Shown here: in pieces, positions 31,122 through 40,179 of the stretch | Numbering within the stretch: position 1 is the first letter of the stretch | Layout of the letters: each line of letters begins with the position of its first letter | Assembly: GCA_013423385.1 (NCBI GenBank) | Contig: BLZA01000019.1 | Coordinates: 806,001 to 870,000 of the forward strand | Origin: Naganishia liquefaciens | Lineage: Eukaryota; Basidiomycota; Tremellomycetes; Filobasidiales; Filobasidiaceae | Direction of reading: 5' to 3' | DNA length: 64,000 bases | Notes under the pieces: generated by a model | The model's input: only the letters and a program-made list of their open reading frames with translations | Told to the model about the DNA's origin: nothing | The model's database searches: none | Made by a program: the position numbers and the translations under genes

Positions 31122-32992
31122 ATGGGCCAGGATCCAGAGTCCGAACAGCGGCGGTTTCGACTTCCGCACCTGTCGCGAAAAGTGATGATTACTTTTGTCC
31201 TTTTGACGACTTTCATCGCCACTTTCCTTCCCTTGACGGTGTACTCGGAATCTCATATCGCAGGGTATGTCCCCAGTCCGTCAGCGACTGGCCAAGGAGT
31301 CCTGACCTCTCTTGCGCTTTGCAGTTTCGATTCCTTCAGGTCTACGATACATGACAGTCTCGGCTCGCTCAGCTCTTCCACCTCCTCTCGGTTGTTCGGA
31401 ACGGTCCGATGTCCCGCGAACTGTCCCTCCGACCCCTATGTGCAGCCCGGAATGCTCTACTTTGGTAATTCGACGCGAGACACGCGATGGGTACCGTTCC
31501 CTCAGGCCGAAGTTAACGACATCAACGGGGAGCAGGGAAAGCGTTTGAGCGAAGTTCAGCCGCTGAACGATATGGAGGTTGAAATATACGAAGCAGAGGG
31601 ATTAATGGCCGGTTTGGTAGACCGAAAGGAGAAGACCGTTCGGTGGGCGAGGGATAAGTTTGTGCTTTTCATAGGTAAGCTTTGATGGTACTTGGCCGAG
31701 TCTTGAGCTGACTCTTTTCCGCAGGATCGAGGTGAGTAATTGTTTGCGGAGAAGAAGTCACAAGCCAATGTGTACATGTCTCTATTCTTGGATGCTTATC
31801 CTAAAGTCGTAAGTGCGACATCCTCTTCCAAGGGTTTGACTGTCAGCTCATTGGCTCGATGCGCGCGCAGATGACCGGAACAACGTGGATAACTTCTGCA
31901 CCGAGGCCAAGGGCGTCGTAAGTTCTCGACTACCTGAGCAAATCTGAGACCATCATTGATCCGTCTCGTCATTTTGTCTTAGTCCCACGGCTGGGGTAAG
32001 CTTACTGGCAAAGGTATTGCCCATTCGGTCCTAACACGAATATCCGCCATGCAGGAGCCCATCAAGGCGGCTTTTGTCACATCGAGTGGTTGAATCTGAC
32101 CGTTGCCAACTGGTTCCTGTAAGCAAGGTGTCACGCGCTTCCACGATTTCCCGCTGATACACCTGCATGGCGCGCAGCTTTGGAATGGTCGATGACGAGT
32201 CCGCCGACTGGTGGAAAAGCGGGGAGGCACGGCCGATCACCTTTGAAAATCGAATTCCGCAAATCATGTTCAAGGGAATGGAGGAGAATGGCCTGGATTC
32301 CAAGCGAAAGCCGGATCTGATTGTGCTCAGCTCGCTTTTCTGGGACGAGAACTTTATCGGAGAAGTGAGTCAAAACAGGTTTTTGAGGGGTTGACTATTG
32401 CTGACTGGAAACCTAGACGGCAAAGCACTACAACGTTGAATTGGACGGAGCGCACGGTTTCACCTGGACCCAGATCGAATGGCACCGTTCTCGAATGCAG
32501 AAACTCATCTTGTACTTGCGAGAACTGTACAACGACAACGATTTGCCGATGATGTTCAGGACGCGACAAATCCGCAAGCAAGCAAAGTGGGCGGGAATGT
32601 TGAAGATCTTCCAAATGGATCAGAGTTGTCGCGCCATTTCGCGAGCGATGGGGCTGAGGTGAGTCACTTGTGCTCGACGCAGTGCAGACCGTTGAAACTC
32701 CTTCCGCAATAGGTACTTCACTTGGGGGGGTAAATTAGAAGGATTCCAGGAGTAAGCTTCTCATTGATGCAGTGATGTAAATCCACGTACCGATGGTTTC
32801 GATTTCAGCTATTATGACGATGATCAGCACTTCCGTAACGGTCCCGCCACCTGGCTATTCGGCGAGTGAGTGCATGTGTTACGAACCGCCTCCCACTATT
32901 GACTGACGGAAATGCCCCCAAGTATGATGCTTTTCTACCTCCGTCGTGCGGTTCTTCCCGGTTGCTGGACTTGTCACCAATGGGATGACTAG
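31122..32992 (+). CDS. Membrane-anchored SGNH/PC-esterase-like protein, copy 1
   Basis: Twelve exons: 31122-31264, 31325-31674, 31725-31731 (7 nt), 31807-31808 (2 nt), 31871-31917, 31983-31995, 32055-32118, 32178-32364, 32417-32658, 32713-32751, 32809-32865 and 32923-32992. The protein is 406 residues. One N-terminal membrane helix (MITFVLLTTFIATFLPLTVY) suggests a type II Golgi protein. The lumenal part has paired cysteines (RCPANCPSDPYVQPG), the nucleophile block FIGSSHDRNN assembled across the 7-nt and 2-nt exons, HQGGFCHIEW, FGMVDDESADWW, and near the C-terminus YYDDDQHFR, which supplies an Asp-x-x-His. This is the PMR5/TBL/Cas1-type O-acyl-transferase/esterase plan; a link to Cryptococcus capsule (CAP64/CAS) proteins is a guess. 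The Asp usual in G-D-S is Ser here. Confidence 0.85.
31807..31808 (+). other. Two-nucleotide exon (TC) in esterase-like copy 1
   Basis: TC lies between ...TATCCTAAAG and GTAAGTGCG. Exon 3 ends in AG and exon 5 starts with AT, so AG+T gives Ser and C+AT gives His of the catalytic S-H-D-R-N-N block. Without it the frame is lost. The same exon exists in the paralog at 34261-34262. Confidence 0.8.
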
Positions 32993-33548
32993 GTATGCAC
33001 AATAGCATTGAAGAGGATGAGGACACTAGAAATAGCCAGGCAGGATACCAGGCTTGACATGTATTTGCATTGCAACTTTCTCGGACATCCCATAGATCTT
33101 CTTGACACTCTTTCGTTGTATCTTAATCTGCATTGGTCTATGTGCATCTTCTCTCATCGAGTTTCAGTGTAAGCACTGGAGATGGCACCCTGTCTCAAAT
33201 CCTCATTGTGGCCATTGCGCTGAGCGGTGGTCCGAGAGTAGAGTACATCAACCCAGCTCTCAATAGAAAATGAGAGACAGCCAGCCAAAAGTGCATATGA
33301 TGCAATCCGAACGTTTTTTTCGTTTCTTCATGAAGAGAGTCTCAAAGGACCCACGACTGGCTGATGGAAGAGCATCGGATGCAGCTGCGAAGTTGCCAGG
33401 GCAGCGCGCATCCCACGAACGTCTCCTTTTTGCGATGCCTGTCACAGTGAGAAACACTTTGACTCCATCTCAAGTTATACCTTCGTCGCATGGTCACAAC
33501 ATTACGAGCGGTCCTTCCTCCTGAAAGCAATCGTGATCCGTCTCCACC
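32993..33548. other. Intergenic between the two esterase-like paralogs
   Basis: A 556-bp spacer. It includes the 3' UTR of copy 1 and the promoter of copy 2. No other gene seen. Confidence 0.5.
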
Positions 33549-35504
33549 ATGCCTTTCGTACAGCATTTGGCAAAATGCCGGCCTCTCAACTTCTCCCGCC
33601 GGACCATGACTGCGATTATCTTTCCAAGTATCACACTGTTCACGCTTTTGCCATTATTCGCGTACACGCAAACACACCTACCGAAGTCTGTATCAGGCAT
33701 CCCACTGCCACCCGCGCTGATGAGTATGCACTTGACAACGACCGTCGTACAGTGTCCATAGATTCCGCAATAAAATCAGCGATCAATATGCAGCCATCAA
33801 GTCTTCCTCCAATGCGATTTTCATGGGCTCTCGACAGTGTCCGACTGACTGCCCCTCCGATCCATATGTCCGACCGGGCATGCTTTACTTCGGCAACAAG
33901 AGTCGAGAGACCCGGTGGGTTCCATTTCCGGTGACTGACGAGGAGGATCAGGGGTCGAGAGGGAGCATTGGCCAGCTCCGCGAGATAGATCATCAAGATG
34001 AGCGCGGGATCGAGCACTATGCAGCAGAGGCGTTAATGAGGGGGCTGGTGGTTGGCAAAGAGAAAGTCATCGGATGGGCTAGGGACAAGTACGTCCTCTT
34101 CGTTGGTAAGTTCAACAAATAGCCAACCAAATAAGCAGAGAATCCTGACCGCCATTTTGCGTACAGGCGCGAGGTTAGTTAACTCTCTCAAGCGCATGTG
34201 ATATGTGTGTATTGACCAGAAACATTCGCGTTGTCTCCTTTGGGGACTGAAAATGTGCAGCCGTAAGCACATTCCTGTCCCATTTATTCACTAAGGATCT
34301 CGTCTAACACCTTTCCAAGACGATCGGAACAACGTACAAAATTTCTGCAAAGAAGTAGGGGGAACTGTAAGCACGCATTTAGTCCAGGCGCGAGAGCCAA
34401 GGCGACAACGAAGGCGATCTAATTCCTATATCGTCTTTCAGTATCTGACTTGGGGTGAGCTCCTCCAGGATTGGCAAGCAGTCTCGCGGCGAGGTCGATC
34501 CAATCCTGATTCGCAGGACCTCATCAGGGAGGGCACTGTCATGTTGAGTGGCTAGGTCTCCGCATGGTGAACTGGTTTCTGTCAGTAACACTGCGCCTGA
34601 CACTGCCATACAGTCTCGGAGGTTGGTCTGATGTATCGGCTCTGATCGATTCCTTCTTCTTGTAGGTTTGGCATGGTAGACGACGAATCGGCAGATTGGT
34701 GGAAATCGAGCGAATTTCGTCCTCTCACATTTGAAGAGCGAATCCCCAAAGTCATGGTCGCAGGGATGGAAGCGACCGGACTGAATCCGACGCAGAAACC
34801 AGACTTGATCATTCTCGGCTCGTTGTTCTGGGACGAGAGCTTCATCGTAGAGGCAAGGGACAAATATTTCCAGCTCTCACGTAGCTTACTGATAATGCTG
34901 TTGGGCTGTGACTGGACCGCACAGAGTAGTCAACATTACGATATCCCCGTACACGACACCCATGGGTTTTCCTATGCTCAAATCAGATGGCATCGGATGC
35001 GCATGCAAAAATTGATCCATCATCTCCGCGATATGTATGGTGACGAAACAATTCCGATGATGTATCGCACTCGGCAGATCCGGAAACAAGCCTTCGGAGG
35101 AGGAATGCTTAAAATCTTTCAGCTGGATCAGAGCTGTCGAGCCGTTGCGAAGAATCTGGGCCTACGGTAGGTCAAGTGCAAGCGAGAATTGAAGGTTGGA
35201 CTAATAAAGCGACTTTCAGGTACTTTACATGGGGCGGAAAGCTCGAAGGCTTTCAAGAGTGAGTGGCGCAATAGTCATTGAATTTCCTTCCGCGTTAACA
35301 CTGACTCGATTGTTTTCATAGTTATTACGACGACGACCAGCACTTTCGGCACGGACCGGCAACTTGGCTCTTTGGCGAGTGAGTATCGTGTATAATTGTG
35401 ATTGTGTAGGATGATCTAACGGGAGGTGCGCTAGTATGACACTGTTCTATTTGCGTCGTGCGACTGCTCCAGGGTGCTGGAATTGTCATCAGTCGGACGA
35501 TTGA
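33549..35504 (+). CDS. Membrane-anchored SGNH/PC-esterase-like protein, copy 2
   Basis: Twelve exons: 33549-33723, 33794-34105, 34167-34173 (7 nt), 34261-34262 (2 nt), 34320-34366, 34442-34454, 34517-34580, 34666-34852, 34925-35166, 35220-35258, 35322-35378 and 35435-35504. The protein is 404 residues. It is colinear with copy 1, and every exon from the third on has the same length. Shared blocks: CPTDCPSDPYVRPGMLYFG, FVGASHDRNN (nucleophile Ser; Ala in place of the usual Asp), HQGGHCHVEW, FGMVDDESADWW, YYDDDQHFR (Asp-x-x-His) and a Cys-containing C-terminus (GCWNCHQ). The N-terminal membrane helix is IIFPSITLFTLLPLFAY. Intron 8 (34853-34924) is GC-AG. It arose by tandem duplication; divergence is substantial outside motifs, so it is old. 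Confidence 0.85.
34261..34262 (+). other. Two-nucleotide exon (CC) in esterase-like copy 2
   Basis: CC lies between ...AAATGTGCAG and GTAAGCACA. AG+C gives Ser and C+AC gives His of G-A-S-H-D-R-N-N. It is the positional equivalent of 31807-31808. Confidence 0.82.
34853..34924 (+). other. GC-AG intron in esterase-like copy 2
   Basis: The donor is GAG|GCAAGG and the acceptor CACAG. It is 72 nt (24 codons) and open in frame. Copy 1 has an ordinary GT-AG intron at the same position (32365-32416), which supports removal here. Confidence 0.8.
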
Positions 35505-35833: not shown

Positions 35834-36339
35834 CTAAGCTTTGTCTGAATGACCAAGATTCTGCTTGGGTTGGATGACATTCCGTATCCTCTGCTTGAGC
35901 ACCTTCAATTCCGGGAAGCCACCTTCCACTTTGCGATCCCACATGAGTCTCGGTGATTCCTCGCTGGGCAGCTGGAGCCAAACTCGAAAGCGGCCGGGAT
36001 GTTCGGTCGCAGGTGTAAGGGTGATGCTGGTGATTGTAGGAGAAGGAAAGGTAAGGAATAGCTCGGTCGCGGTCCAAGATGCACGGGGGGCCCATCGACA
36101 CTGATGATGGGAAAATTAGAAGTGAACCAGCAGGAGAAGTAGCGAGAGCTTACCCCGTCGCAATACTCAATAGTCACCGCTGGGCCGATTGACCTTTCCA
36201 GAGGCCTGAAGGTCGAGGGATCTTCAACATCTTCGTCCTGTTTCGCCGACGCTGTCTTGGGTTGCGATGAAGATCTCTGTCCAGGATCCTCGGGGCGACA
36301 GTCCAGACAGGTAGGGTCCGGTGTTGGTATGCTTGCCAT
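35834..36339 (-). CDS. Rdx-family selenoprotein-W-like thioredoxin-fold protein
   Basis: Two exons on the minus strand, 36339-36154 and 36100-35834, give 150 residues. After a disordered N-terminus (about 50 residues) comes VTIEYCDGCRW, a Cys-x-x-Cys redox motif; the first exon ends between the Gly and the second Cys. Then follow TATELFLTFPSPTITSITLTP, GRFRVWL, LMWDRKVEGGFPELKVLKQRIRN and LGHSD, the full signature of the fungal Rdx family (relatives of SelW/SelT). Cysteine replaces selenocysteine, as in other fungi. The role in redox signalling is inferred from family. It is divergently transcribed from MCM6 across 267 bp. Confidence 0.93.
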
Positions 36340-36480
36340 TGTAAGATGCTCAAGAACCAGGGCAGATAGGGACGGAGCATTCCCATACTCCCAAAGCGTT
36401 GTAGGATGGCACCAGATGAGCAATCATGTGGGCTGATCCGCTGAAAGTTTGCCACCTCATTTCTCTCAAAGCGCGTTCAG

Positions 36481-36606: not shown

Positions 36607-40179
<3,573 letters not shown>

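Follow-up and report, generated by a model that had tools for sequence, protein, structure and literature searches.

Candidate two-nucleotide exons in a putative catalytic motif of tandem esterase-like genes of Naganishia liquefaciens

The gene pair and its smallest exons

A 64,000-nucleotide (nt) stretch of the genome of Naganishia liquefaciens (Tremellomycetes, Filobasidiales; assembly GCA_013423385.1, contig BLZA01000019.1, positions 806,001 to 870,000; hereafter, the window) harbors two tandem esterase-like genes, each of which appears to hold a real, normally included exon of only 2 nt. The introns flanking this exon would be recognised by intron definition and spliced sequentially, completing the protein block GxSHDRNN; we put the probability of this reading at about 0.9. 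Both genes and the parts that build the block are given below.

31122-32992, plus strand: gene 1 of Naganishia liquefaciens, 12 coding exons, 406 amino acids (aa), SGNH/TBL-like domain
31122-31264, 31325-31674, 31725-31731, 31807-31808, 31871-31917, 31983-31995, 32055-32118, 32178-32364, 32417-32658, 32713-32751, 32809-32865, 32923-32992, plus strand: exons of gene 1
31725-31731, plus strand: exon 3 of gene 1, 7 nt, GATCGAG; remainder of the Gly codon, a Ser codon and the AG of the Ser at the catalytic position
31732-31806, plus strand: intron 3 of gene 1, 75 nt, GTGAGT...AAAG
31807-31808, plus strand: exon 4 of gene 1, 2 nt, TC; third base of the Ser codon and first base of the His codon
31809-31870, plus strand: intron 4 of gene 1, 62 nt, GTAAGT...GCAG
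33549-35504, plus strand: gene 2, tandem paralog of gene 1, 12 coding exons, 402 aa
33549-33685, 33762-34105, 34167-34173, 34261-34262, 34320-34366, 34442-34454, 34517-34580, 34666-34852, 34925-35166, 35220-35258, 35322-35378, 35435-35504, plus strand: exons of gene 2
34167-34173, plus strand: exon 3 of gene 2, 7 nt, GCGCGAG
34174-34260, plus strand: intron 3 of gene 2, 87 nt, GTTAGT...GCAG
34261-34262, plus strand: exon 4 of gene 2, 2 nt, CC
34263-34319, plus strand: intron 4 of gene 2, 57 nt, GTAAGC...CAAG, with a branch-point-like CTAAC 12 nt from its end

An earlier, sequence-only reading of this DNA had claimed that both genes split the block over a 7-nt and a 2-nt exon, that each 2-nt exon is preceded by AG and directly followed by GTAAG, and that the Ser and His codons are built across it. 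The same arrangement emerged when the genes were rebuilt from the sequence (slashes mark splice boundaries): ...TTC ATA G/gtaagc...cgcag/GATCGAG/gtgagt...ctaaag/TC/gtaagt...gcgcag/ATGACCGGAACAAC in gene 1 and ...TTC GTT G/gtaagt...gtacag/GCGCGAG/gttagt...gtgcag/CC/gtaagc...ccaag/ACGATCGGAACAAC in gene 2, the 2-nt exons being flanked as AG/TC/GTAAGT and AG/CC/GTAAGC. One refinement is that the first base of the Gly codon is supplied by exon 2, upstream of the 7-nt exon. The exon joins ATAG/GATCGAG/TC/ATGACC and GTTG/GCGCGAG/CC/ACGATC encode GSSHDRNN and GASHDRNN, respectively, with the Ser codon divided as AG/T and AG/C and the His codon as C/AT and C/AC. The spliced joins with all nine bases included, as rebuilt by script, are TTCATAGGATCGAGTCATGACCGG (gene 1) and TTCGTTGGCGCGAGCCACGATCGG (gene 2); the strings diagnostic of inclusion are GGATCGAGTCATGACC and GGCGCGAGCCACGATC.

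In both genes the tiny exons are required for the reading frame and for the homologous protein sequence. Skipping the 2-nt exon alone leads to a stop at aa 168 in gene 1 and aa 193 in gene 2 (joins GGATCGAGATGACC and GGCGCGAGACGATC, checked by script), and since this early stop occurs in both genes, the 7-nt exon joined straight to exon 5 cannot be the productive form. Skipping the 7-nt exon alone results in a stop at aa 198 (gene 1) or 174 (gene 2). When the two are skipped jointly (joins TTCATAGATGACCGG and TTCGTTGACGATCGG, checked likewise), the frame is kept and the serine is lost, the products reading FIDDRNN and FVDDRNN.

Splice paths, paralogs and homologs

Splice paths leading from exon 2 up to the DRNN codons were enumerated, with GT/GC-AG introns of 40-400 nt, and the in-frame, stop-free paths were kept (111 in gene 1, 127 in gene 2). 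Exactly one path per gene places GxSH before DRNN, and in both cases it is the ladder of 7 and 2 nt. The role of chance was assessed with 1000 dinucleotide shuffles per gene, the outer splice sites being fixed; when all donors had to read GTDAG (GT[A/G/T]AG, as in the real genes), no GxSH path appeared in any of the 1000 shuffles of either gene. The string AGYCGTAAG occurs at two sites of the 64-kb window, 31805 and 34259, which are those of the two 2-nt exons, and is absent from the minus strand.

Exons 3-11 are equal in length between the paralogs (7, 2, 47, 13, 64, 187, 242, 39 and 57 nt), and the proteins share 59% identity over 398 columns (BLASTP). In the 243 codons compared from exon 3 onward, the amino-acid identity is 0.70 and only 13 of 55 fourfold sites are identical, i.e., a nearly random level, and none of the 11 intron pairs exceeds its shuffles by more than z 1.7 (range −0.4 to 1.7). 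As compared at the sequence level, the paralogs are thus synonymously saturated and their introns unalignable, so that the duplication is old and the ladder has been kept for longer than the neutral sequence nearby. The conservation of the tiny exons across an old duplication, as proposed in the sequence-only reading, is borne out by these comparisons.

Three protein searches retrieved 31 proteins, of which P0013 corresponds to gene 2 of the window; a search with an alignment-derived profile (cut-off 1e-10) gave at least 13 proteins, and a single-sequence search (1e-3) listed 29. The block G[SDAE]SHDR[NA]N is uninterrupted in 16 of the 31, a hole of exactly three residues lies at the motif in six, and the other nine are otherwise broken, truncated or different. 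Lineages were looked up for N. liquefaciens, K. bestiolae, V. pseudolonga, C. viscosa, D. hungarica, A. porosum and Tulasnella; the other named organisms are placed in the classes to which they presumably belong. Among the 13 named tremellomycete models, the block is intact in two (Vanrija albida and Dioszegia hungarica), has the three-residue hole in six (five Kwoniella, one Vanrija pseudolonga) and is otherwise broken in five (three Naganishia, Apiotrichum and K. botswanensis). Named models outside Tremellomycetes (Tulasnella, Gautieria, Ramaria, Hysterangium, Clathrus, Calocera) are intact in 11 cases of 13, as are three of the five proteins lacking an organism name. Three intact proteins come from short contigs of 940, 1967 and 1279 nt, which may be complementary DNA (cDNA).

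The annotated model of gene 2, NliqN6_3251 (P0013), is identical to our product over three blocks of 110, 62 and 81 residues and lacks the GxSHDRNN motif. It is one of the 11 of 13 named tremellomycete models without an intact block, which agrees with the earlier suggestion that such exons would be missed by gene finders. Because of these models, enzymes of the family look dead or unrecognised. The hole peptide F[LIV]DDRNN of the six models corresponds to exon 2 joined directly to exon 5. As far as can be read from the proteins, this points to two outer intron positions that Tremellales, Trichosporonales and Filobasidiales share, with nine coding bases concealed between the two. Two further proteins bear apparent traces of the ladder: P0029 ends in KGAR, as would be expected if AG/GCGCGAG/GTAA were read unspliced in another Naganishia-like genome, and P0028 (Calocera viscosa, Dacrymycetes) reads VGDRYGL, which would fit a phase-2 donor after the AG of the Ser codon. 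In P0009 (Kwoniella botswanensis, GESVDLVQDDRNN) and in P0007 and P0001 (Apiotrichum porosum and Naganishia friedmannii models), the motif is broken beyond what a skip of the 7 and 2 nt explains.

Alignment A1 was made without P0029, P0030 and P0031. Alignment A2 comprised 13 hand-chosen proteins of the 16 with an intact motif; the invariance of the motif in A2 is partly circular, because A2 was selected for it. A search for relatives in viral contigs gave six pattern matches, none of which was confirmed.

The products probably are SGNH-fold, TBL/PC-esterase-like proteins, i.e., polysaccharide O-acetyltransferases or esterases of the secretory pathway; both this activity and this location are predicted, and a hydrophobic stretch is seen by eye at the N-terminus of the gene 1 product. 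In SGNH hydrolases the nucleophile is expected directly after a strand and at the start of a helix, and the model of P0010, a homolog of the window proteins, has Ser138 right after strand 131-136 and at the start of helix 138-150. This supports the placement of the GxSHDRNN block at the expected site of the SGNH catalytic serine in the modelled homolog, the catalytic position proposed for it in the sequence-only reading. The fold matches of the model (Foldseek, VIA-align) are largely lipase/esterase-type hydrolases, and many are GDSL/SGNH-type by description; ten Foldseek rows lie at E <= 0.001, and those beyond include nucleosidases and GTP-binding proteins. The best VIA-align match (12% identity) is XOAT1 (PDB 6cci), which we take to be a xylan O-acetyltransferase of the TBL/PC-esterase type; it is not among the best 50 Foldseek rows.

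The SGNH/PC-esterase (TBL) family is characterised by a GDS motif and a C-terminal DxxH. GDSHDRNN is found in four of the five Calocera proteins; the window genes have GSS or GAS, and the other intact proteins GSS. The window genes read DDDQH, which contains DxxH, but in A2 the invariant Asp stands four residues before the His (D333/H337 in P0010). No PDB chain was found by sequence with the family profile, and gene 1 matched no Pfam family at E <= 1. When 13 relatives were compared with Pfam, three matched PF13472 (best E 0.024) and two PF13839 (best E 0.048); the single relative with scores shown falls below the gathering cut-off. Therefore, the proteins are not filed in the SGNH/PC-esterase (TBL) family, and the notion that they work like its members rests on the fold.

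Splicing mechanism, competing explanations and precedents

The preferred reading draws on the need for the frame, the unique solution under the enumerated rules, the conservation between paralogs, the motif in homologs and the predicted fold of a homolog. What we infer from these is the inclusion of the 2 nt in messenger RNA (mRNA) and the order of splicing. In the proposed mechanism, the introns beside the 2-nt exon (75 and 62 nt in gene 1; 87 and 57 nt in gene 2) would be recognised by intron definition, and introns 3 and 4 would be removed in succession, two bases being too few for spliceosomes to occupy both sides at the same time. Together, the 7 and 2 nt would finish the Gly codon, encode x and Ser, and contribute the first base of the His codon. 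Exon 3 ends in AG, as does intron 3. The intron 4 donor would therefore have the context AG-YC/GTAAG whether or not intron 3 has already been removed, so that the two introns could leave in either order. Introns 3 and 4 of both genes contain a match to a relaxed branch-point pattern. All 22 introns of the pair are 50-87 nt long, a length that suits intron definition; for this reason, and given the 1-nt exons documented elsewhere, the limit on exon definition is no real obstacle.

Several points weigh against this reading. The inclusion of the nine bases in mature mRNA is deduced from genomic and protein sequences, and the split into 7 and 2 nt, as opposed to one 9-nt exon, is read in the N. 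liquefaciens genome only. Under loose shuffle rules (GT/GC-AG, introns of 40-200 nt, up to three introns), a GxSH path of some kind was obtained in 90 of the 1000 shuffles for gene 1 and in 61 for gene 2. Intron 3 of gene 1 has a weak branch-point-like CTTAT, 8 nt from its end. Among the matches listed, no database protein was both uninterrupted and identical to one of the two spliced products, which may reflect low expression or an incomplete database. In one report (PMC4674806), rice protoplasts mis-spliced an artificial 2-nt exon placed in APC11, and 33% of transcripts skipped an artificial 1-nt exon of potato invertase. RNA sequencing runs of strain N6 do exist (DRR237068-DRR237071; PMC7679087).

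It is conceivable, at rather long odds, that the two exons form a regulated switch, inclusion giving an active enzyme, double skipping an in-frame dead protein and skipping of the 2-nt exon an early stop. The exon phases permit exactly these outcomes, and a regulated microexon has been reported in a fungus, Trichoderma virens (PMC11121469); still, the phase compatibility of the 7 and 2 nt follows from the coding need alone. A broader proposal, which we regard as a long shot, is that the ladder is ancient (Filobasidiales, Tremellales, Trichosporonales, perhaps partly Dacrymycetes) and a phase-neutral cassette, with the 2-nt exon as the switch of the enzyme.

Quite improbably, most transcripts would lack both the 7-nt and the 2-nt exon, so that the main product would read FIDDRNN or FVDDRNN without the serine and the published models would be right. 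The double skip is indeed in frame in both genes, and the models of five Kwoniella and one Vanrija pseudolonga have exactly this form. However, the block is uninterrupted in more than half of the retrieved proteins (16/31), and frame-perfect microexons with consensus donors have been kept in the paralogs despite synonymous saturation. Moreover, the smallest exons are known to escape gene finders (PMC8831610 and PMC12940212), hence the hole-bearing models need no biological cause.

An assembly error or pseudogene decay, with the tiny exons as chance patterns, is very improbable: short patterns are easily found in introns, as the loosely defined paths illustrate, but two diverged genes call for one and the same solution at the matching site, the remaining exons join into one open frame per gene with consensus intron ends bar two donors, and 14.7 Gbp of reads went into the assembly of 19.4 Mb (PMC7679087). 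Although nested stwintrons are a described fungal class (PMC6616335 and PMC9024468), it is hardly credible that introns 3 and 4 form one such intron, one removed within the other with no exon left, since in both genes the reading frame is shifted and soon meets a stop when the whole of 31732-31870 or 34174-34319 is removed; hence, the two bases must stay in the mRNA.

The preferred reading, i.e., inclusion of a real 2-nt exon, has precedents: exons this small have been described, though they are very rare, and they are often missing from public models of this esterase-like family. In potato invertase, a 9-nt mini-exon supplies part of a catalytic motif. It resembles the present case in placing nine coding bases in a microexon, and stepwise removal with the second intron going first is cited for it; it differs in being one 9-nt exon, against 7 and 2 nt here, of a different enzyme (PMC4674806). 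Exons of 1 nt were reported in Arabidopsis APC11, with proof from cDNA and reporter constructs (PMC4674806), in plant VPS55, with sequencing of reverse transcription polymerase chain reaction products (PMC8831610), and in Fusarium CYP621A, with 18 SRA reads in support (PMC12940212, 2026).

The APC11 and VPS55 exons, too, are indispensable to the reading frame, lie between AG and GT and were misannotated (PMC4674806, PMC8831610); for APC11, sequential intron-defined removal was proposed in a paper that cites the stepwise removal around the invertase exon (PMC4674806). In contrast, they are plant exons proved by transcripts, that of APC11 lying within a 422-nt intronic stretch, whereas those described here are known from the genes. 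When a 2-nt exon (TT) was engineered into APC11, Arabidopsis protoplasts spliced it exactly (PMC4674806). The Fusarium case is likewise fungal, with an ultra-small exon within a conserved motif and an annotation problem, and follows the same logic, from a phase mismatch and an uninterrupted homolog; it differs in having one tiny exon of 1 nt, orthologs and SRA reads, as against 2 nt in a row of 7 and 2, tandem paralogs and evidence from the genes.

Since PMC12940212 mentions earlier finds of 2-5 bp exons in Arabidopsis, Drosophila and humans, no priority is claimed for a 2-nt exon. Literature searches on named forms of the 2-nt exon brought up no paper on one, two hits being judged unrelated by their titles; passages of PMC8042270 and PMC12409088 likewise mention none, and those of a paper on N. 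liquefaciens BRCA2 (PMC10684384) hold nothing on introns. What the N. liquefaciens pair adds is two consecutive tiny exons, their conservation in paralogs and their location at the presumed catalytic serine. If transcripts confirm inclusion, a 2-nt exon has been retained through an old duplication within the codons of the presumed catalytic serine and its neighbour, and the pair would offer a natural substrate for the study of how spliceosomes handle exons that are too small for binding on both sides, with two diverged copies to compare.

Other features of the locus

The gene models contain further unusual elements:

31983-31995, plus strand: exon 6 of gene 1, a 13-nt micro-exon, TCCCACGGCTGGG
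34442-34454, plus strand: exon 6 of gene 2, a 13-nt micro-exon, TATCTGACTTGGG
33686-33761, plus strand: intron 1 of gene 2; best model, with a weak GTCTGT donor, keeping phase with gene 1
34853-34924, plus strand: intron 8 of gene 2, with a GC donor, GCAAGG...ACAG

Apart from these GC and GTCTGT donors, the intron ends of both genes match the consensus; the gene 1 counterpart of the GC donor is GTGAGT. As the GTCTGT donor is weak, the N-terminus of gene 2 is less certain. A search of the species' own genome (E <= 0.001; counts are lower bounds) gave nothing beyond these two genes among the matches listed.

Downstream, a small Rdx-family (SelW-like) gene lies on the minus strand at 35834-36350 (Pfam PF10262 on the stretch 35834-36115), and its CxxC motif, YCDG/CRW, is likewise interrupted by an intron, as judged by eye. 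An MCM helicase gene adjoining the esterase-like pair occupies 36609-38319 on the plus strand, with MCM_N, MCM_OB and the MCM P-loop recognised by Pfam in two stretches.

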